Part shown: piece by piece, positions 3,241-45,588 of the stretch
How the letters are laid out: each line of letters starts with the position of its first letter
Numbering within the stretch: position 1 is the stretch's first letter
Assembly (NCBI RefSeq): GCF_007989105.1
Contig: NZ_BJVK01000010.1
Location: 1-64,000, forward strand
Source of the DNA: Lentilactobacillus kefiri
GTDB taxonomy: Bacteria; Bacillota; Bacilli; Lactobacillales; Lactobacillaceae
DNA length: 64,000 nt
Direction of reading: 5' to 3'
Program-made: the position numbers and the translations under genes
Notes under the pieces: model-generated
What the model saw: the letters and a program-made list of their open reading frames with translations, nothing else
Database searches by the model: none
What the model was told of the DNA's origin: nothing

Positions 3241-3301
3241 TTGCCGAACGGTGTGTTAATCACTATAATAGTCTTGTGCGACTGCCAACAGCCTGTTGGC
3301 A
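3241..3301 (+). promoter_or_regulatory. Promoter with adjacent 19-bp palindrome
   Basis: TTGCCG (3241-3246), a 17-bp spacer and TATAAT (3264-3269) give a near-consensus promoter for the HTH/coiled-coil gene. A perfect 9-1-9 inverted repeat, TGCCAACAG-C-CTGTTGGCA (3283-3301), begins about 6 bp past the likely start of transcription. It could be an operator or a 5' mRNA hairpin. Confidence 0.6.
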
Positions 3302-7230: not shown

Positions 7231-7360
7231 ACGTGCCAACTTCCAATCCATTTAGTTTTATAAAGTAAGCATGCCATAAAATTGCCAATTAAGGAATTGT
7301 TTTTCGTAATATTTACAAGACTGATACTAAATCTTTAAATTATTTAACGATTCCAATTAC

Positions 7361-9883: not shown

Positions 9884-9915
9884 CAAAAAATCCTTGATAA
9901 TGATTATCAAGGATC
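9884..9915 (-). terminator. Terminator of the thrC-thrB-ACT operon
   Basis: Twelve-bp perfect stem (9890-9901 with 9903-9914). Read leftward, it is followed by six T residues. It lies about 40 bp past the stop of the ACT-domain gene. Confidence 0.8.
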
Positions 9916-15403: not shown

Positions 15404-15575
15404 ATTGCTTGAGTACAAAATAATAATAAAAAGTGTACCAAATAAATAAATATGTACCTAAAAGTATTTCATTTTCCCCTTTTCTATGATACCCTAACAG
15501 TGGCATTAGCCATAGCGGCATGTGAACGGGGTATTCAAGTCTTATGTGCCGACTACATTGAAGGGGGATTTTTCT

Positions 15576-18500
15576 ATGCATAATTTATGGAAAGATCAGG
15601 ATCGCAAGGTCCATTTCAAGATGTACAAGTCAGGCAAACATTGGGTGTTTGCCGGGCTGGCAGTTGTTGGACTGGGTATGGGGTTGGGCATTTCTGGGGG
15701 AAATGTTCTTGCTGATACCCATGTAGATGGAAGTGTTCCACAAACAGATCATGAAGATACAGCACAAATGATTATCACTGATAAACAACCTGGCGAACCA
15801 GATGGTACTAATCCAAAAGGACAAGTCAATCTCCCTGCGTCAGACGACGAGAGTCATTCTCAATCAGCAAAAGTTGAAATCAATCCATCTCTGTCGACTG
15901 ATAATACTGATGAGAAGTCCGCAGCAGATGTGGCTGTTGTAAATACTCCAAAAGTGGCAGATCATACTACGACTGCTCAAAATACCATTAATAAGGATAA
16001 AAAAACTGATAATAATACCCACGTAAGTAAAACAAAACCAAACGAATCAGATAATCAGTCAGCATCGGCACCTATTGAAAAATTGTCAGATACCAATCCA
16101 CAAACCAAACCAAATTCTGATACCAAGCAGAGCCTGAAGGCTAAAACAGCTTCAAACCATTCAGTTGAGGCGGACGCAGCCATCAGCTCTTCAGAAAGCA
16201 AGACTGCAGCAGATCATGAAACGAACTCCAATGAGTCCAATACAGTTATTGTTAAGCCGGAGAATTTTAAGGATTACTTTCAAGTAAACAGTCATGCGAC
16301 TTGGAATGGGAATATGTTGACACTGACAACCGGTCATCACCAATCTGGAAATGCAACTCTGAAAACAAAAATTGATATGCAAAATAGTTTTCAGCTAAAA
16401 GGCAGTGTGATGCTTGGCGACGGAAATTATCCAAGTACTGAATGGGCTGATGGCATCTCATTCGGATTTCATAGTGGTGATGTCAATGCTCATGGCGGAG
16501 CTGGTGCTGACATGGGAATGGGCGGATTGCCTGATGGATTTGGATTTAAATTAGACACATATTCAAACACAGATCCAGACCATGAGGACCCTGAACGATT
16601 TATTTATATTCCTTATTTTGGTGGCCTACAGGAAACACAAGCTTTCGGGGCATTTGCTTACAATAACAACAAGCCAGGGAATCCGTCTGAAACATATAAT
16701 CCCAGCAAATTGTCAGATCCTGACGCTCCTAAAGCATTAGCAGCTGGCGCTGACGACAGCTTAAAGCCAAAACATTTTTACCCTGTTGAAATTGATTATG
16801 ATGGTAAAACCCACGATATGACAGCTATCTTTGATAATGATGTGGCACACCGCAAAATTACTTGGCACCACAATGTGTCACACTGGTCAGAAAACAAAAA
16901 GGCGTTGTCTTTTTTCATTGCAGCATCCACAGGACAAAGAGGTGGTCTTCAACAGTTTAAATTTGATAGTTTTCAATACACCGTTCCCAGTGTTGTCAAT
17001 GTAAAATTTACGGACGAGGATGGCAGAACGATTCCAAACGCCCCTCAACCGCTAACAATCTACGGCAAACCAGGCCAAAAGGTTGATTTAACTGGGGTTA
17101 CTGCCGATATTCAAAAGATTGAAAGGAATGGTCAATACTATTTCGATCGGGTCAAAAAAGAAGGAATAGGTGACTTTGATGTAAACAAGAATCTCTTGAC
17201 AATGTCTAAGCAGACGCAAGATATTAATTACTATTTTGCAAAAAGTCAGGCAAAAATTAATGCTAATGATTTTACAATTTATGCCGGTCAGCCATGGACC
17301 TCAGATTTGAAAAATGTTACGGCGGTTGCAAAAAATGGTCAAGCAATTGATCCAAGTGATCTTGTGGTGATTCCTGAGGGCGACAGCCAAACACCAGGAA
17401 CTTACAACGTTACCTACAGGTTGAATCAGCAGTGCTATCATAATGGACCTGTCCAATCGGTAACGAAGACTGTTAAGGCAACTGTTATAGAGAACAAATC
17501 AAAGATTGAGGTTAAAGATGCTTCATATTCTGTTGGTGATAAATTTGATCCAGCTAAGAGCCTTGTTTCTGCCGTTGATGGACAAGGAAAATCAGTTTCG
17601 TTAGATAGTGGGGAACTCACAAGTCAAGTTTCAGATGCAGATGGTCATTCAGTTGCTCAAGATGCTGTCACGGCGCATTCTGGAGATTACTACCTTCAAT
17701 TTTCTTATAAGAATGGTCAGCAGGTCCTCTCCAAATCCAAACGTTCCAAGATTACAGTTATCCAGCCAAACAACATCACTGTTGATTTGATTGCACCGAA
17801 TAACGACCAGGTAAGGTCAATTTTGCCTAAAGACCATCAGACCGGCGATCAAATTGACGTAGCCCCTTCCAGCAAATATTTAGCCAGTATCATACCGACT
17901 GGCTATCATTATGCGAAGGCCGATGAGTTACAGACTGACGAAACTCAGCCAACAGTCAATCCGGTGTATTCCGGAAAGGAACAAACGGTTAAAGTTTACG
18001 TCGTAGGGGACACTGTGGATAAAAACGCTGCTAATGCTTTGACAGTTCATCATTATCTTAAAGACTCTGCAGATGTCAAAGTTGCCCCTGATAGTTCGAT
18101 TGGCGGCCGGATTGGTCAGAAGGTTGTGGCTACATTAAAGGATGCCGCCCATGCAGCTGAAGGCTATACCTTGGTGCCCAATCAAAAAGACCAGACAGCG
18201 ACCTTGAAATTAAACCAAGGAAGCCAAGTGAAATTTTACTATACAGCAGATCCTCAGGATAATATCAAAGTCAATGTCCTTAATGCAGCAAACGTCGATA
18301 TTGTAAAAGTGACAAAGCCGGAAGGACATCATACTGGAGATGTGTTGGATGTTTCTCCAAATAGTTCATTTTTGGATGTTGCTAAAGAACGTGGCTATCA
18401 CTACGCGACCGGTGATGAACTGAATGGACATATCCAACCGCTGGGCAACCCAACTTATTCTGCAAAGCCTCAGGAAGTTAACATCTACGTTGTCGGGAAC

Positions 18501-21500
18501 ACCATCACTGATAAGATGGATAACTCACTTTTAATTCATTATTTTAAAGACAATACGACCACTGCCATAAAGCCAGAGCGAAGAGTTGGTGGCATTGTTG
18601 GGTCAACTGTCACTTTGAAACTTAATGATAAAGAGCAACAAGTTCCCGGTTATGAATTGGTATCGCCTGATAAGGACGTTGAATGGACACTAAATAATTC
18701 TAATGGACAGGTGCAAAACTTCTATTATAAGCCTAGTGAACAAAAGAATATTGCTGTTCATTTTATGAATGTCCAAACAGATAAACCTGTTGGAAGTCCT
18801 GTTGATCCGCTTGGCCATACCAATGAAACGTTAAATCTCAGTGAAACCAGCAACCAAATTCATGTTCCAGAAGGCTATCATTGGGCAACTAAAGAAGAGT
18901 TGGACAAATATCAAAGGCAACAGACTCAGGAAATGAAATGGGGAACTCAAAAGCAGAATGCCAATGTTTATGTAACTGGAAATCCAATTGATGCTAATTC
19001 GAAGAATGCTTTGACAGTTAATTACTATCTTCAAGATGATCATAGCCTAAAGACCAAAACGGCTATCAGAAATGCTGATAAGATTGGTGGAAACGTTGGC
19101 GATCAGGTAACGGTTGATCCGCAAAGTAAGGACAATCACATCGATGGATATACTGCCGTTGGAAAAGAAAAAATCACCCGCACATTGGGAACCTCCCCAA
19201 CCGATCCGGTAAATCTTTATTACACTGCCAATAGCCTTAATAACATTACTGTTAAAGTGGTTGATGTTAATGGTAATCCTGATACCTTTGTTACAACGGA
19301 GACCCCAGCTGGTAAAACGGGACAGAAACTTGACTTAGCACACAATGTCAATATTCCTGATGGCTATCATTTAGCAACAAACGATGAGTTGAAGCAACAT
19401 AACGCTACCCAACCAAATAATCCAACATACAAGGCAGATTCACAGCAAACAACTGTATATGTGGCTGGAGATGACGTAACAGATGCCGTGACGGTTCATT
19501 ACTATTTGCAGGATGAACAAGGAAAGCCAACTATGACTGAAGTCGCAAAAGACACATCAATCAATAGTAAAGTCGGTCAAACCGTTACTGTTGACCCTGA
19601 ACATCAATCTCCAAAAATTGATGGCTTCACAATTGTGCCTAATCAAAAGAAACAGTTAATAACCACCAAATATAAAATTCACAGTGTCGTCCCTGTCTAC
19701 TATACGGGGAATGTCTCTTCCAACATTAACGTTCACTTCATCAATAGTAATACAGGTGAAACTGTTCAGACTGAGCATCCTCAAGGACATACTGGTGGGG
19801 TGTTGAATTTGAATGATGATTCGAGGGTTCCTATTCCAAATGGTTATCATCGAACGGATCCAAATGCAGCGGGCAATAAACAAAGCCAGAATCCAACTTA
19901 TACAACTAAGGAAAAAGATGTTCAGGTATATATCACTGGAAATCCAATTAGTTCACATGATAAGAATGCCCTGGTAATCAATCATTACCTGGTGGATGAT
20001 ATGGGCCAAAAAACGACTGATTCTTTTCACACGTTGCCTAAGATTGTCGGTGGTCAAGTCGGTCAATCCATTACGATTGACCCTCAAGCACCTGAAAATC
20101 AAATTCCGGGGTATACAGCCATTGACCAAGCCAAGATTACTCGAAAGCTGGCCGCTCATCCAGTTGATCCGGTGAACTTGTATTATAAAGCTGATACGCT
20201 TCACAACATTACCATCGAAGAATATGATGACTTTGGGAATCCTGGCAAATACGTTACAACCGCTGTTCCAACCGGTAAAACGGGTCAGAAATTAGATTTA
20301 GCTGATAATCAAAATCTTCACATTCCGAATGGCTATCACCTTGCAACTTCTGATGAGTTGAAGGCTAACAAGGTTAGTCAACCAGCTGATCCAACCTATA
20401 GTCCAACTTCACAAACTGTCCGAGTATACATTGCCGGGAATATCGTCAAGAATGCTATGACGGTTCATCACTATTTACGAGATGAACAAGGTAAGCTAAC
20501 TACAAAGATGATAGCAGATGATACACATTTACGTGGTCGAGTGGGTCAAACACTCACGTTTAAACCATCTTCCGAGCCCCAGAAGTTCCCTGGCTACACA
20601 ATTGTGTCAGGTCAGCCTGAAAAGTCGGAGCCTGTTAACCCTGAAACTCCTGGTGAAACGGCTATTTACTATACTGGAAACCTCAATCAGACGATTAGTG
20701 TTCACTTCATTGACAAGCAAACCAAAAAGACAGTCACAGTTGAAGTTCCCGAAGGCCATACAGGGAGTGTATTGGATTTAACTAACCCTGATAAGGTCAA
20801 AATTCCCGATGGGTATCATCGAGTAGAACAAATCACTCAGAACCCAACGTACAGCACTGACAAGCAAGATGTGAACGTGTATGTTGCAGGTAATGAGGCT
20901 AAAGATTCCGTTACTGTTCACTATTATCTTCAAGATGAACAGGGCAGACCAACGACAATAAAGATTGCTGACGACAGCCAAATTGGAACTCAAGTTGGGC
21001 AAACTGTAACTTTTGACCCGAATAAGAATCCCAAGAAAATCGATGGTTACACACTTGTCTCGAAGCAAACTCAAAAAGTTGTTGAAATTCAGCCAAATAT
21101 GCATCAAGAAATTCCTGTTTACTATACTGGCGACAAGAATAATAAGATCACTGTTCACTTTGTTGATCCCAAAAATAATGGAACAACTTTTCCAACAGAA
21201 AAGCCTGAAGGTCACACCGGTAGTGTCTTGAATTTGGATGATAACAATCAGATTAAAATTCCTGCCGGGTATCACCGACTAAATCCAGCTGATATTCCTA
21301 ATAGCAAAAATCGACCTGCCAACCCGACCTATTCAACGAAAGATCAAAATGTGGATGTTTATATCACTGGAGATCCAGTTGATTCCAATGATGTGAATGC
21401 ACTGATCATCAATCATTACCTCCAAGATGGAAAAGGCCAGCAAACAAAACACGTAGTTGGACCATCAAAAAGGGTAGGTGGTCAGGTTGGTGAAGTGATT

Positions 21501-24500
21501 ACCATTGATCCTCAGAATTCTGATAATCAGATTGCAGGATATACCGCAGTCGGTAAATCCCCTATCAGCAGAACATTGGGTGTAAAAGCTGGTAGTCCAA
21601 TCGACTTGTATTACACTGCCAATGCTGCTAATAACATTACCGTTCATGAATTTACTGTTAATGGGAATCATGTTGCTCTAATTAACACCGCAACGCCAAA
21701 CGGAAAGACCGGGGAAACACTTAAACTGGATGATAACTCTAATTTAACAATTCCGGTTGGGTACCATATCGCAACGCCTGATGAATTGAAGGATGCAAAA
21801 GTTAGCCAACCGACCGATCTAACATATAAGGCCAGTCCTCAAACGGTAAGTGTCTATGTTGCTGGTAACCAAGTGGACAAAGCCGTTATGGTTCATTCTT
21901 ATTTGCAGGATGAAACAGGTAAGAAAACAAAAACAAAGGTTGCGCACGATCAATTTCTTCACGGTCGTGTCGGCCAGGATGTGCCTGTCGATCCAGCCAA
22001 GTATCCTCAAAAAATTGACGGGTATACGATTGTTCCTAACCAGCCGGTCAACTCGTTGACAATCCCAGCGACAGGAAAAGAAGAAGCAGCTATTTACTAT
22101 ACTGGTGACAAGAACACCAATGTAGTTGTTCATTTTATCGATAGCAATACTGGAAAGTCGGTTACGGTTGAAACTCCGCAAGGCCATACTGGATCCAGCT
22201 TGGATTTGAACGATAATGCCAAAGTTAAGGTTCCGGAAGGCTATCACCGTGTTGATAAAGGTAACCAATCACAAAATAAGAATCTGAAATTCACTAATAC
22301 CAAGCAGGATGTAAATGTTTATGTTGCTGGTAATGTTATTAAAGATGCTGTTACCACTCAGTACTATCTTCAAGATGAGAATGGTAAGCCGACAGATAGT
22401 CCAATCGCACCTGAAAAACCCCATAGTGGAACAGTTGGCCAAGACATAACGATTCATCCAGCTGTGATAGATGGGTATACGATTTCCCCTAATCAGGGCA
22501 AAATGGTATTTGACGTTACCCCTGGCATGCACAAAGTGGTTCCAATTTATTACACAGGGAACAAAAACAATATGATTAGTGTCCACTTTATTGATCCCAA
22601 CGATCAGAACCACACTGTTCAGATTGAAAAGCCTGCTGGCCATACTGGTAGTGTCTTGAATTTGAATGACAATACGATTATCCATATTCCGGACGGGTAT
22701 CACCGTGTTGATACAGCGGATATTCCAGGCAAAAAGCAAAGCGAAAACCCAAGATTCAGTATGAAAGAACAAAACGTTGACGTTTATGTGACAGGAAACC
22801 CAATTGATCAGAATTCCAAGAACGCTTTGATCGTGAACCACTATCTTGAAGATGAAAGCGGGAAGCCAACAACCAAATCAATTGGAAAACCGCTTCGAAT
22901 TGGTGGTCGAGTTGGAGCAAAAATTATTGTTGATCCTCAGGACAAACAGAATGAAATTCCTGGTTATACAGTCGTTAAAGCACAGCCAATAACCAAGTAT
23001 TTGACCAATCATCCAATTGATCCGGTTAGTTTGTACTACACCGCAAACGAGGTCCACAACATTACGATCAATGAATATGATGTGAATGGTGATTCTGATA
23101 AACCGATTCAAATAAGTGTACCAACAGGTAAGACGGGAACTCAGCTCGATTTGAATGATGTCAATAATCTCAAGATTCCGGAAGGGTATCACAAGGCAAC
23201 TGCAACGGAATTGAAGGGCCATCAACAGCCAACCGATCCAACGTACACTGCAAGTCCACAAGACGTTAAAGTGTATGTTGTTGGAAATCGTGTTAAAAAT
23301 GCAGTTACCGTACATTATTACTTGATGGATGAGACTGGAAAAGCCACAACCATTCCTGTGTCAAAGGATCAGACAAGTGATGGCCAGGTTGGCCAAAAAA
23401 TAACAGTTGATCCATCTGACCAGCCTCAACAAATCGACGGCTATACACTTTTGCCAAATCAGCCAAAGCATCAATGGCTGGTAACACCAACTACTCAGGA
23501 AAAAACAACGATTTATTATACTGGGGATGTAAATTCGCACGTTGTTGTTCACTATGTTGATGCAAATACAGGTAAGACAATCTCAGTTGATCGACCTCAA
23601 GGCCACACTGGTGGAGCCCTTAACTTAGATGATAATTCCAAGATTGTTATCCCAGATGGTTACCACATATCTGATCAGCAAGAATTGTTGAATGGCGAAA
23701 AGCAGCCAACCAACCCAACTTATACGGCCAAAGATCAAAACGTTGATGTCTTTATTACAGGGGATGTCATTGAACCAAATGATGGTAATGCAGTGACGGT
23801 CCATCATTACCTATCTGGGACCTCCAATCCGATCATTCCGGATACCAAAGTCGGCGGAAGGGTCGGACAAGTTGTTCAGATTGATCCTCAAGCTGACAAT
23901 AATCAGATTACCGGTTATACGTCAGACGCCGACCAATTCGTACAAAGACGAACTTTGGGAACAGCCCCTGTTGCCGATGCGACTATCTATTACACGCCCA
24001 ATGATGAGCAAAATATTACCATTAAGTATGTTGATGGAAACACGGGTAAAGTTGTTGGGACAGCTACACCAAAGGGGCACTTCGGTGGTCAAATTGATAT
24101 TGATAATCCTTCTGTTGCCAAGATCCCAGATGGATACCATCGTGCAGCAACAAATGAACTCCCTAAGGGAAAGCAGCAGCCTAAAGGAAACCTAACATTT
24201 ACGGACAAAGATCAGGATGTTGTTGTTTATGTATTTGGAAACTACTCTGGCAATAACGGCGGATATGGTGGATCAGACGTTGTCACACCAACGCCAACCA
24301 CCAAGCCCGAGCAGTCTAAAGCTTCACAGCCTGCTAATCCAGTTGTTAAAGTGCCTGTCTCAAATGATAGTGTTCCAAGAAATCGAAGAAGCACTATCAA
24401 GAAGGGCGAAGTCGTCTACTCCTTGAAGAAGATTTATCTTTACAAGAATAAGACCTTCTCCAAGAAGCAACGAATTGCTGGCTATGTCAAAAAGCCACGT

Positions 24501-25085
24501 GTTTATCGACCGATGTTCGTTGTCATCGGACATAGCTATTCCAAGAATGGGCTAATGAGATACAAGGTTCGAGATGTTAACCATTTGACTAAGAACCGGC
24601 ATTTAGTTGGATATATTACTGCAAATGCGGAATACGTTCGACCAGTCTATTATCAAGGTACCCATCGAACAATTACCGTCATCAATCCACTTGGAGTAAA
24701 CAGCTATAAGCATAAAGACTTATCTGGCAAGACTAGAAAGTACAAGCAAGGGACAGTTCTTCACGTTGCTAAAGTGGTTCATCATCATTTGACAACTCGA
24801 TATGTGCTGACAAATGGTCGATATGTGACTGCCAACCGCAAGTTAGTGATCACTGGTAACAAGAAGATGCCAAGAACCATTCGGGTTAAGAAGACGATTA
24901 ACCGATACAAGAATGTCAACTTTACTCACAGAAATAAGAAACACATTCAAAGAGGAACCAAACTTAGAGTTTTGGGTTACGATTATTCCCATGCAAACAG
25001 TGTTTCAAGACATGGTACATTAAGATACCGGGTCACAGGTGGTTACGTAACCGGAAATTCAAAATTCGTTAAAATTTATCGTTAG
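15576..25085 (+). CDS. Giant lectin-like surface protein with tandem MucBP-like repeats
   Basis: 3169 residues, the largest gene here. The N-terminus has a KxYKxGKxW-type signal peptide (KMYKSGKHWVFAGLAVVGLG, about 12-31) with cleavage probably after GNVLA. Residues about 45-225 are a low-complexity Ser/Thr/Asn/Lys region. Residues about 230-470 form an L-type (legume-like) lectin domain with the carbohydrate-site-like segments EWADGISFGFHSG and LPDGFGFKLDTY. One MucBP-like and two Ig-like modules follow (about 475-735). Thirteen two-module repeats of about 160 residues plus a half repeat then run to about residue 2890. After a Pro-rich linker, three basic modules of about 70 residues (DUF5776/SLAP-like, ending YVTGNSKFVKIYR) close the protein. 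There is no LPXTG, so attachment is probably ionic via the cationic tail. The ATG at 15576 has AAGGGGGA 7 bases upstream. Adhesin to glycans or mucus is the likely role (inference). Confidence 0.85.
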   Translation: MHNLWKDQDRKVHFKMYKSGKHWVFAGLAVVGLGMGLGISGGNVLADTHVDGSVPQTDHEDTAQMIITDKQPGEPDGTNPKGQVNLPASDDESHSQSAKVEINPSLSTDNTDEKSAADVAVVNTPKVADHTTTAQNTINKDKKTDNNTHVSKTKPNESDNQSASAPIEKLSDTNPQTKPNSDTKQSLKAKTASNHSVEADAAISSSESKTAADHETNSNESNTVIVKPENFKDYFQVNSHATWNGNMLTLTTGHHQSGNATLKTKIDMQNSFQLKGSVMLGDGNYPSTEWADGISFGFHSGDVNAHGGAGADMGMGGLPDGFGFKLDTYSNTDPDHEDPERFIYIPYFGGLQETQAFGAFAYNNNKPGNPSETYNPSKLSDPDAPKALAAGADDSLKPKHFYPVEIDYDGKTHDMTAIFDNDVAHRKITWHHNVSHWSENKKALSFFIAASTGQRGGLQQFKFDSFQYTVPSVVNVKFTDEDGRTIPNAPQPLTIYGKPGQKVDLTGVTADIQKIERNGQYYFDRVKKEGIGDFDVNKNLLTMSKQTQDINYYFAKSQAKINANDFTIYAGQPWTSDLKNVTAVAKNGQAIDPSDLVVIPEGDSQTPGTYNVTYRLNQQCYHNGPVQSVTKTVKATVIENKSKIEVKDASYSVGDKFDPAKSLVSAVDGQGKSVSLDSGELTSQVSDADGHSVAQDAVTAHSGDYYLQFSYKNGQQVLSKSKRSKITVIQPNNITVDLIAPNNDQVRSILPKDHQTGDQIDVAPSSKYLASIIPTGYHYAKADELQTDETQPTVNPVYSGKEQTVKVYVVGDTVDKNAANALTVHHYLKDSADVKVAPDSSIGGRIGQKVVATLKDAAHAAEGYTLVPNQKDQTATLKLNQGSQVKFYYTADPQDNIKVNVLNAANVDIVKVTKPEGHHTGDVLDVSPNSSFLDVAKERGYHYATGDELNGHIQPLGNPTYSAKPQEVNIYVVGNTITDKMDNSLLIHYFKDNTTTAIKPERRVGGIVGSTVTLKLNDKEQQVPGYELVSPDKDVEWTLNNSNGQVQNFYYKPSEQKNIAVHFMNVQTDKPVGSPVDPLGHTNETLNLSETSNQIHVPEGYHWATKEELDKYQRQQTQEMKWGTQKQNANVYVTGNPIDANSKNALTVNYYLQDDHSLKTKTAIRNADKIGGNVGDQVTVDPQSKDNHIDGYTAVGKEKITRTLGTSPTDPVNLYYTANSLNNITVKVVDVNGNPDTFVTTETPAGKTGQKLDLAHNVNIPDGYHLATNDELKQHNATQPNNPTYKADSQQTTVYVAGDDVTDAVTVHYYLQDEQGKPTMTEVAKDTSINSKVGQTVTVDPEHQSPKIDGFTIVPNQKKQLITTKYKIHSVVPVYYTGNVSSNINVHFINSNTGETVQTEHPQGHTGGVLNLNDDSRVPIPNGYHRTDPNAAGNKQSQNPTYTTKEKDVQVYITGNPISSHDKNALVINHYLVDDMGQKTTDSFHTLPKIVGGQVGQSITIDPQAPENQIPGYTAIDQAKITRKLAAHPVDPVNLYYKADTLHNITIEEYDDFGNPGKYVTTAVPTGKTGQKLDLADNQNLHIPNGYHLATSDELKANKVSQPADPTYSPTSQTVRVYIAGNIVKNAMTVHHYLRDEQGKLTTKMIADDTHLRGRVGQTLTFKPSSEPQKFPGYTIVSGQPEKSEPVNPETPGETAIYYTGNLNQTISVHFIDKQTKKTVTVEVPEGHTGSVLDLTNPDKVKIPDGYHRVEQITQNPTYSTDKQDVNVYVAGNEAKDSVTVHYYLQDEQGRPTTIKIADDSQIGTQVGQTVTFDPNKNPKKIDGYTLVSKQTQKVVEIQPNMHQEIPVYYTGDKNNKITVHFVDPKNNGTTFPTEKPEGHTGSVLNLDDNNQIKIPAGYHRLNPADIPNSKNRPANPTYSTKDQNVDVYITGDPVDSNDVNALIINHYLQDGKGQQTKHVVGPSKRVGGQVGEVITIDPQNSDNQIAGYTAVGKSPISRTLGVKAGSPIDLYYTANAANNITVHEFTVNGNHVALINTATPNGKTGETLKLDDNSNLTIPVGYHIATPDELKDAKVSQPTDLTYKASPQTVSVYVAGNQVDKAVMVHSYLQDETGKKTKTKVAHDQFLHGRVGQDVPVDPAKYPQKIDGYTIVPNQPVNSLTIPATGKEEAAIYYTGDKNTNVVVHFIDSNTGKSVTVETPQGHTGSSLDLNDNAKVKVPEGYHRVDKGNQSQNKNLKFTNTKQDVNVYVAGNVIKDAVTTQYYLQDENGKPTDSPIAPEKPHSGTVGQDITIHPAVIDGYTISPNQGKMVFDVTPGMHKVVPIYYTGNKNNMISVHFIDPNDQNHTVQIEKPAGHTGSVLNLNDNTIIHIPDGYHRVDTADIPGKKQSENPRFSMKEQNVDVYVTGNPIDQNSKNALIVNHYLEDESGKPTTKSIGKPLRIGGRVGAKIIVDPQDKQNEIPGYTVVKAQPITKYLTNHPIDPVSLYYTANEVHNITINEYDVNGDSDKPIQISVPTGKTGTQLDLNDVNNLKIPEGYHKATATELKGHQQPTDPTYTASPQDVKVYVVGNRVKNAVTVHYYLMDETGKATTIPVSKDQTSDGQVGQKITVDPSDQPQQIDGYTLLPNQPKHQWLVTPTTQEKTTIYYTGDVNSHVVVHYVDANTGKTISVDRPQGHTGGALNLDDNSKIVIPDGYHISDQQELLNGEKQPTNPTYTAKDQNVDVFITGDVIEPNDGNAVTVHHYLSGTSNPIIPDTKVGGRVGQVVQIDPQADNNQITGYTSDADQFVQRRTLGTAPVADATIYYTPNDEQNITIKYVDGNTGKVVGTATPKGHFGGQIDIDNPSVAKIPDGYHRAATNELPKGKQQPKGNLTFTDKDQDVVVYVFGNYSGNNGGYGGSDVVTPTPTTKPEQSKASQPANPVVKVPVSNDSVPRNRRSTIKKGEVVYSLKKIYLYKNKTFSKKQRIAGYVKKPRVYRPMFVVIGHSYSKNGLMRYKVRDVNHLTKNRHLVGYITANAEYVRPVYYQGTHRTITVINPLGVNSYKHKDLSGKTRKYKQGTVLHVAKVVHHHLTTRYVLTNGRYVTANRKLVITGNKKMPRTIRVKKTINRYKNVNFTHRNKKHIQRGTKLRVLGYDYSHANSVSRHGTLRYRVTGGYVTGNSKFVKIYR
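17768..24240 (+). repeat. Two-module repeat array inside the giant surface protein
   Basis: Fourteen units start near 17768, 18261, 18748, 19239, 19721, 20202, 20687, 21139, 21629, 22115, 22565, 23053, 23537 and 24009; the last is a half unit. Each full unit has an A module (N-I-x-V-H-F-x-D ... P-x-G-H/K-T-G ... GYH ... VYV-x-GN) and a B module (AxTVHHYLxDE ... VGQxVTxDP ... xIxGYT ... xYYTG). From unit 6 the array has a three-unit period of about 1425 bp. Confidence 0.85.
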
Positions 25086-44160: not shown

Positions 44161-44817
44161 TTGAGAAAACCTTGGACGATGACAACATTTTATCTTAGCT
44201 ACGGATTCATGATTGTGCTCTGGTTCTTTGGCAGAGAACTGATCAACTTTATCGAGCACCACTATACGACTGGGCTTGCGAGTGACTTAACCAGTCTAGC
44301 TATCAAAGCAGTGATCATGGTAGGCCTTGGTGTGTATTGGATCACCAAAACGGATCATCAATTATGGATAACTAAACGCAAACTCTATAACGGAAACTTT
44401 CCGATGGTGTTTTGGATTGTCTTGGCGATGTTTGTCGCATACCTGGCCTTCTTGATGTATGGTGCCCATCACAGCTTCTATATTCAGTCAGATCCCCTCA
44501 AAAGCGGTGAGTTTATTAGTGTGACCGTTGGTGCCGGCTTAATTGAGGAGCTGTTATTCCGCGGCTTCTTCATGAACTTTCTGATGAAGCACTACGGGAT
44601 TTTTGCTGCAAATATTGTCCAGGCAATCTTATTTCAAATTAGTCATTTTCCCTTGTATTATCTAGAGGGCTTAACAATGACTGGCTGGTTGGTTAATATC
44701 GCAAACGTGCTGCCACTGGGCTTGATCTTTGGCTGGATATTTTATCGGACCAAGAACCTCTGGCCGGGAACCATTTTGCATTGCGTTTGGGATACTGGAG
44801 TGACATTGTTTATTTAA
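44161..44817 (+). CDS. CPBP-family intramembrane metalloprotease (Abi/CAAX-like)
   Basis: 218-residue membrane protein with six to seven helices. The three CPBP motifs are present: EELLFRG (about 128-134), FQISHFPLYY (about 159-168) and HCVWDTG near the C-terminus, giving the Glu/His/His metal-binding set. In lactobacilli such proteins are often linked to bacteriocin immunity or peptide processing, but no bacteriocin gene is adjacent. The start is probably TTG at 44161; an ATG six codons later is the alternative. Confidence 0.8.
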   Translation: MRKPWTMTTFYLSYGFMIVLWFFGRELINFIEHHYTTGLASDLTSLAIKAVIMVGLGVYWITKTDHQLWITKRKLYNGNFPMVFWIVLAMFVAYLAFLMYGAHHSFYIQSDPLKSGEFISVTVGAGLIEELLFRGFFMNFLMKHYGIFAANIVQAILFQISHFPLYYLEGLTMTGWLVNIANVLPLGLIFGWIFYRTKNLWPGTILHCVWDTGVTLFI

Positions 44818-44828
44818 ATGACCAATCC

Positions 44829-44873
44829 TTGACACGATGGTCATTTCTTGGCATAATAGTAACCGTTACTATT
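44829..44873 (+). promoter_or_regulatory. rpsN promoter with overlapping Zur-like palindrome
   Basis: TTGACA (44829-44834), 17 bp, CATAAT (44852-44857). A perfect 9-1-9 palindrome AATAGTAAC-C-GTTACTATT (44855-44873) overlaps the -10 and the start site. Its GTAA-n3-TTAC core matches the core of the Bacillus Zur box (TCGTAATnATTACGA). Zinc-dependent repression is the expected control for this rpsN type. Confidence 0.7.
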
Positions 44874-44940
44874 GAGTGTACACAAAATAACCTAAAACCC
44901 ATTAATTAAACAATTACGATATTTGGAGGTATGATATTAC

Positions 44941-45210
44941 ATGGCAAAGAAGTCAAAAATTGCTAAGAACAAACGTCAAGAAGCACTGATTGCAAAGTAT
45001 GCGGACATTCGTCGTCAGCTGAAAAAGGAAGGTAACTACGAGGCATTAGCCAAGTTGCCAAAGGATTCCAATCCCAACAGGTTACGTCATCGTGATGAGC
45101 TGGATGGCCGTCCACGTGGATACATGCGTAAATTTGGCATGTCACGGCTTAACTTCCGGAAGTATGCCCATCTTGGTCAAATTCCTGGTGTTCACAAGGC
45201 TAGTTGGTAA
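44941..45210 (+). CDS. rpsN: 30S ribosomal protein S14, zinc-independent paralogue
   Basis: 89 residues, the long C-minus form of S14: no CxxC zinc-ribbon motif, conserved [18 protein letters not shown] start and RNRCR-region equivalent [31 protein letters not shown]. In Firmicutes this isolated copy replaces the zinc-binding S14 of the main ribosomal operon when zinc is scarce. It is outside the ribosomal protein cluster and preceded by a Zur-like palindrome. TTGGAGG lies 11 bases before the ATG. A 38-residue gene follows 28 bp later. Confidence 0.93.
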
Positions 45211-45238
45211 TTCTTGATTTAACAAAGGAGTGATCAAC

Positions 45239-45355
45239 TTGGAAAAACAGGATTTAGCGAGTGCATATCGTCGCCTAAAGAGTCCCAGTATCAAGGTTCG
45301 TAAACGGGCTTTGAAGATTATTCATGAAGCAAAAGCAAACAGGCAACATAACTAA
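45239..45355 (+). CDS. 38-residue basic protein downstream of rpsN
   Basis: Starts at TTG with AAGGAGTG 8 bases upstream, and encodes a highly basic, helical peptide (EKQDLASAYRRLKSPSIKV followed by RKRALKIIHEAKANRQHN). It lies 28 bp after rpsN and before a strong terminator, so the two are probably co-transcribed. I have a recollection that short proteins of this type are annotated in lactobacilli as putative metal homeostasis proteins, which would fit control by Zur; I cannot verify this. It has no cysteine, so it is unlikely to bind zinc tightly itself. Confidence 0.7.
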   Translation: MEKQDLASAYRRLKSPSIKVRKRALKIIHEAKANRQHN

Positions 45356-45365
45356 ATTGTGCATA

Positions 45366-45409
45366 AAAGCACCCCAAATGATTATGTTTAATCATTTGAG
45401 GTGCTTTAT
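45366..45409 (+). terminator. Terminator of the rpsN transcript
   Basis: Long stem AAAGCACC-CAAATGATT / AATCATTTG-GGTGCTTT with a single mismatch and T-run. Confidence 0.88.
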
Positions 45410-45588
45410 TTTACATGAATATTACATTTTTGGAATTGAATAGTATTTCCTTGACTTAGTATGGTTATCTTTGTAAGGTAATAATAACTTAAGATATTTC
45501 GAATCTCATATAAAAGTCATGGCACCTTTGATTTGGGAATTTAAGCGCGTTTCTATGTTGCTCACGGGGAAAGAGCGAGGCGTTGCCC

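Follow-up and report, generated by a model that had tools for sequence, protein, structure and literature searches.

A probable Zur-controlled rpsN2 operon in Lentilactobacillus kefiri and the small-protein family NF038026

The predicted Zur regulon of Lactobacillaceae comprises znuABC, zur and rpsN2 (PMC3616900, 2013), and a 9-1-9 palindrome is one of the forms in which Zur boxes have been presented (PMC6103462). In Staphylococcus aureus, RsaX20, which contains the putative ORF SAOUHSC_02702, has a Zur motif and is co-expressed with the Zur regulon, but it has been kept as an sRNA since its translation is uncertain (PMC5826253). Expression of rpsNb and sak_RS00910 in Streptococcus agalactiae depends on zinc and on AdcR, the latter gene being annotated as a putative metal homeostasis protein (PMC11580457). 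Genes with this annotation also appear in a table from a colonisation screen of S. agalactiae (PMC9239048) and among the changed genes of L. rhamnosus GG (PMC8973438).

The locus described here, in which a 38-codon gene follows rpsN2 in L. kefiri, resembles the Lactobacillaceae regulon in the family of its putative regulator, its rpsN2 target and its company of znu-like genes and a putative zur. It differs in the small gene, of which the accessible part of that regulon's description makes no mention (PMC3616900), and in a second copy of that gene in the genome, which has a Zur-type site of its own. RsaX20 forms a separate transcript, according to the available portion of its description (PMC5826253), whereas the gene studied here, from the same family (NF038026), lies behind rpsN2. 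The S. agalactiae system likewise combines a zinc-free S14 with a gene of the same annotation, and zinc regulation has been shown there; however, its regulator is AdcR, its box is TTAACNNGTTAA and its two locus tags lie far apart (PMC11580457, as far as its accessible text goes). sak_RS00910 is likened to the small gene by annotation, not by sequence. Over the 300 bp preceding rpsN2, TTAACNNGTTAA is matched at best with three mismatches. Record OR846602 and plasmids of Lactiplantibacillus and Pediococcus likewise have Zur-type sites ahead of the small gene and of ribosomal proteins lacking CxxC (C-minus), but their operons are longer, while that of L. kefiri holds only rpsN2 and the small gene.

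Both the switch and the two genes are of known kinds. The present analysis adds a well-supported Zur operator for L. kefiri and finds that, across several families of Bacilli, NF038026 genes usually have a zinc-regulator site upstream and are often neighbours of zinc-free ribosomal proteins. New are the survey of sites at the small-gene loci, the selection at the protein level, the scarcity of cysteine and the adjacency to C-minus S14 in either order.

Promoter, operator and genes of the rpsN2 locus

The DNA analysed, hereafter the window, is a stretch of 64,000 nucleotides. The features of the locus are as follows.

44829..44857, plus strand: sigma-70 promoter, TTGACA-N17-CATAAT, matching 11 of 12 consensus positions (sequence reading and promoter scan)
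44855..44873, plus strand: putative Zur-type operator AATAGTAACCGTTACTATT, a 9-1-9 palindrome (sequence, motif searches and conservation)
44941..45210, plus strand: rpsN2, an 89-aa S14 paralogue without CxxC, of the zinc-independent type (PF00253, 86.7 bits; PRK08881, 111.7 bits)
45239..45355, plus strand: TTG-started gene for a 38-aa basic protein, NF038026 (RsaX20_sORF; NCBIfam, 67.3 bits, cut-off 30)
45366..45407, plus strand: hairpin followed by a T-rich tail, the probable transcript end (fold of 45356-45415, -24.3 kcal/mol, z = -7.03)

A CAAX-protease-family gene on the plus strand ends at 44817, ahead of the promoter. The -35 element (TTGACA, 44829-44834) and the -10 element (CATAAT, 44852-44857) are separated by 17 nt, and the pair is the best match among the seven promoters that the scan placed in the region. 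In AATAGTAACCGTTACTATT two perfect arms of 9 bp flank a single central base; the palindrome overlaps the final three bases of the -10 and spans the expected transcription start, so that a bound protein would block polymerase. The first-pass annotation had described this arrangement as a perfect 19-bp palindrome over the -10 of a consensus promoter, followed by a C-minus S14 paralogue and a tiny basic protein, and direct reading together with scanning bears it out in each of these points.

The S14 domain of rpsN2 is recognised by Pfam and NCBIfam, and a CxxC-bearing S14 is encoded elsewhere in the genome (contig C4). The nearest named relative, among the best 80 of 544 confirmed matches, is the S14 of Lentilactobacillus sunkii DSM 19904 (96% identity). 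The small gene starts 28 nt after rpsN2 with TTG at 45239, a position taken by ATG in two relatives of the same genus, and AAAGGAG ends 8 nt before this start. Downstream, a consensus terminator scan reported none at 45366-45407, and Rfam gave three matches at the hairpin, each below its gathering score. The two genes would share one transcript.

From the -10 into the leader, 50 nt (44852-44901) are invariant between the window and the two relatives (L089, L109), while the same three sequences differ in the promoter spacer and at the third base of many codons. The invariant stretch is longer than the operator requires, and its leader portion holds a second small palindrome, GTGTACAC.

The symmetry of AATAGTAACCGTTACTATT alone is modest evidence, because the window has three odd palindromes that are perfect over arms of 9 bp or more, AATAGTAACCGTTACTATT included; across 30 first-order Markov sequences of control the mean was 0.2 and the largest number 2. 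Of the other two, the perfect palindrome TGCCAACAGCCTGTTGGCA lies at 3283-3301 between two divergent ORFs. The second, a perfect palindrome of 25 bp at 9890-9914, resembles the Fur-box consensus and was considered as a Fur box but rejected; it is read as a terminator because it is placed beyond the end of a minus-strand gene and is followed by a T run on that strand. The Fur-box pattern had no exact match among 239 loci.

Similarly, the core GTAA-n3-TTAC singled out in the first-pass annotation is present in the operator, yet it is not rare: the window has five copies (0.79 expected) and the genome 51, below the 149 of the reversed-pattern control. Of the other four copies in the window, three fall within ORFs of at least 80 aa and one (7306-7316) outside such ORFs. 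One uninterrupted reading frame of 3187 aa is also present in the window, at 15522-25085.

Recurrence of the motif and the candidate regulator

The core sites inside the fetched stretches were ranked by arm symmetry, and two longer patterns were searched in the genome: an extended 23-bp motif, TAAAnnGTAAnnnTTACnnTTTA, and a 19-bp pattern, AATnGTAAnnnTTACnATT, chosen after the window site had been seen. TAAAnnGTAAnnnTTACnnTTTA occurs with at most one mismatch at five sites, located as follows.

Contig C3: upstream of the genome's only PF01297 (ZnuA-family) gene
Contig C9: upstream of a Fur-family gene
Contig C12: upstream of a znuCB-like pair
Contig C25: upstream of the second NF038026 gene
Contig C52: 240 nt upstream of a gene for a His-rich 110-aa protein

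The window site itself differs from TAAAnnGTAAnnnTTACnnTTTA at three positions, and matches up to this level show no enrichment, numbering 39 where the reversed control has 56. The gene surroundings were read at the window site and at the five sites listed above, the rest being two sites with two mismatches and 31 with three. AATnGTAAnnnTTACnATT is found exactly at two sites only, in the window and before the second small gene on C25. With up to one mismatch it has six sites against four in the reversed control, which again is no enrichment by count; those with one mismatch lie at likely zinc genes on C3, C12 and C52 and also on C6. Leaving C6 aside, the six consist of the window site plus four of the five TAAAnnGTAAnnnTTACnnTTTA sites. 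A matrix trained solely on the znuA-like (C3), Fur-gene (C9) and His-rich (C52) sites gave the window site 16.4, the top score in the window, the next being 13.8, within an ORF. The best evidence for the site, and it is strong, is thus where in the genome the best matches lie, not their number.

The same palindromic site is common to the window and to the presumed zinc-uptake genes of the genome, whose zinc role is assigned by family and context. For the znuA-like and znuCB-like proteins the best NCBIfam models, manganese models among them, all score below cut-off; they are candidates for zinc transport. The genome search proposed in the first-pass annotation succeeded at the znuA-like and Fur-family genes but failed at a C-minus L33 paralogue (contig C40, L034), which has no Zur-type site over the 1.5 kb to each side, the best score of 9.5 falling short of the threshold of 11.4.

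On contig C52 (L021) the Zur-type site occupies 225-247 and the His-rich gene 488-820; its 110-aa product contains 21 His and 3 Cys, and neither Pfam nor NCBIfam matches it at E <= 0.01. Relatives with 85-86% identity are found on three plasmids of Pediococcus damnosus.

Two Fur-family proteins are encoded in the genome, on C2 and C9. The C2 protein is PerR-like (129 bits to the peroxide regulator of B. subtilis). The C9 protein is diverged (84 bits to the same regulator) and has a Zur-type site of its own just upstream. It scores 35.6 against the NCBIfam Zur model (cut-off 167), falls below the curated cut-offs of all nine NCBIfam models that it matched, and, among PDB chains, scores better with PerR and Fur than with Zur. 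Its assignment as the putative Zur is made by exclusion and from its own site.

Taken from the sequence, the locus is very probably a two-gene zinc-starvation operon of rpsN2 and the small gene, repressed by a zinc-bound Zur of the Fur family. With sufficient zinc, Zur would occupy the palindrome over the -10 and the start site, and its binding would block transcription of the operon. When zinc is low, Zur would leave, and the zinc-free S14 and the 38-residue NF038026 protein would be made; the former could replace the zinc-binding S14 and so spare zinc. The Zur operator and the shared transcript, both proposed earlier, gain support from the recurrence of the motif, the available Fur-family protein and the conservation in two relatives.

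Two other explanations concern the site itself. Since Fur-family boxes are alike and one protein of this genome is clearly PerR-like, the palindrome might serve another Fur-family regulator, PerR, in place of Zur; this is very unlikely, as the motif also stands at the znuA-like and znuCB-like genes, at the second small gene and at the other Fur-family gene, and 5 kb around the PerR-like gene contain no such site (best 8.1, L010). The palindrome might also be a chance symmetry before constitutive genes, given the three palindromes of such size in the window and the failure of the core and extended patterns to exceed their reversed controls by count. Against this stand the placement on the promoter, the 50 nt invariant in three genomes, the fact that the genome's best motif matches fall at likely zinc genes, and the presence of such a site at 41 of the best 80 (of 544) named C-minus S14 loci, so that chance is highly improbable. 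By its placement, its recurrence at zinc genes and the invariant stretch, the site rises above chance.

The small gene across Bacilli

Among 398 genomes sampled across the class, 31 contain NF038026, as do 57 of 151 genomes sampled within the family; both counts include the genome studied here. Every match listed by both genome searches was taken, which gives 98 distinct loci, two of them from this genome; the genomes are related and hence not independent. The 300 bp before the small gene, or before S14 where S14 directly precedes it, were scanned with a Zur-type threshold set at the 99th percentile of 1960 first-order Markov control sequences. Such a site was found at 66 of the 98 loci, where about one is expected (64 of 96 without this genome), and the exact core at 52, against 1.1% of controls. 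AdcR-like boxes occur at ten of the 98, which is weak against 3.3% of controls, but in one genus (g4) all four loci with the small gene carry one. Zur-type sites and AdcR-like boxes (at most one mismatch) together cover 72 of the 98 loci.

Neither kind of site lies within 300 bp at the other 26. Some of these loci are internal to longer operons, the small gene following a cobW-family gene by 0-3 nt (L059-L061, with L059 typed by Pfam) or a ZnuA-family gene by 75 nt (L144). Three of the 14 rpsN-small gene pairs (L079, L103, L113) also have no site, and among the remainder are loci where no neighbouring zinc gene was seen.

C-minus S14 adjoins the small gene at 20 of the 98 loci, directly before it at 14, the window included (gaps of 8-59 nt), and directly after it at six (gaps of -8 to 89 nt). 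At L120 and L126 (genomes G459 and G515) the small gene instead follows a second S14 of zinc type, each genome having two S14 genes, and a Zur-type site is absent from the 300 bp searched. The linkage to S14 may in these cases outlast the zinc switch.

The loci were also approached from the S14 side, with rpsN2 as query; the named set consists of the best 80 of 544 confirmed matches and leans to close relatives. At the Zur-type threshold used above, a site accompanies 41 of these 80, as noted. Nine loci of this set have the small gene immediately 3' of S14; they belong to Lentilactobacillus, Granulicatella, Pediococcus, Companilactobacillus, Vagococcus and Enterococcus. Five others have it on the same strand at a distance of up to about 1.1 kb, and one has it on the opposite strand. 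In the other 65 of these 80 it is not in the stretch.

The small gene is also held by 54 plasmid records, of which three were opened. A plasmid of L. salivarius carries two Zur-type sites, rpsN and the small gene. In plasmids of L. plantarum and P. inopinatus (L237:1362-4527 and L238:1363-4527) two Zur-type sites head what appears to be a zinc-starvation cassette in the order rpmF, a gene for a 100-aa hypothetical protein, rpmG, rpsN, the small gene, an amidase gene and znuA, with rpmF, rpmG and rpsN all lacking CxxC. The unannotated record OR846602.1 (L239) has a Zur-type site followed by rpsN, rpmG, a cobW-family (COG0523) gene, the small gene and AdcA-ZinT. It is labelled Enterococcus phage but is probably bacterial DNA; one of its ORFs resembles tRNA-dihydrouridine synthase.

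The NF038026 protein

The first-pass annotation had put the small gene forward as a new member of the zinc-starvation response. This cannot be maintained: its match of 67.3 bits to NF038026, 'putative metal homeostasis protein', spans the whole 32-position model and places it in a family that already has a name, and both a Zur motif for RsaX20 (PMC5826253) and AdcR- and zinc-dependent regulation of a gene of the same annotation (PMC11580457) have already been published. The second copy, on C25, has its own Zur-type site. At E <= 0.1 Pfam, and at E <= 1 PHROGs, gave no match to the small protein, and a literature search of partial coverage found no paper on the function of the NF038026 protein.

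A conserved Cys or His ligand, as a metal-binding protein would show, is not found among 89 distinct homologues: any Cys occurs in only three, while His is absent from 37 and present at least twice in 16. The median net charge of the family is +11. An AlphaFold model of the 38-residue protein has helices at 6-12 and 18-37 (mean pLDDT 89.5, pTM 0.60). Foldseek returned 84 matches to this model at E <= 10 and none at E <= 0.001, and the family profile had ten matches among PDB sequences, the best at E = 0.71. Designed armadillo repeats were considered as a fold relative and set aside, since their Z of 4.8 on a second look, the best obtained, is below the level that helical pairs reach by their common arrangement.

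Because of the two predicted helices, the charge of +11, the scarce Cys and the frequent S14 neighbour, the small protein is suggested to act on the ribosome or on RNA, as an accessory of zinc-starved cells and not as a metal binder. A narrower proposal is tentative, being possible but not favoured: NF038026 proteins may be accessories of zinc-free ribosomes that bind the 30S subunit or rRNA near S14 and aid assembly, stability or pausing. It is drawn from the company that these genes keep: C-minus S14, whichever of the two genes comes first; on plasmids, C-minus L32, L33 and S14; and, in one genus, a second S14 of zinc type. The company of zinc sites and ribosomal proteins makes the function directly testable, perhaps on the ribosomes of zinc-starved cells.

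Two further readings compete with a ribosome- or RNA-directed protein. According to the family name, the protein could bind or buffer zinc directly, and ZnuA/AdcA-family or COG0523-type neighbours at some of the small-gene loci would fit such a role; the scarcity of Cys, and the absence of His from 37 of the 89 homologues, make it unlikely. Alternatively, the 38 codons might not encode a functional protein and the downstream RNA might be the active product, as proposed for RsaX20 of S. aureus, which was kept as an sRNA on account of its uncertain translation (PMC5826253). This is highly improbable for the gene studied here: the three Rfam matches in the stretch all remain below gathering score, and a good ribosome-binding site precedes the small gene. 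In 46 close pairs of homologues, which overlap and are not independent, the codon changes comprise 540 synonymous and 143 non-synonymous ones, and the substitutions at codon positions 1, 2 and 3 number 147, 85 and 602, a pattern which indicates selection at the protein level in this family.
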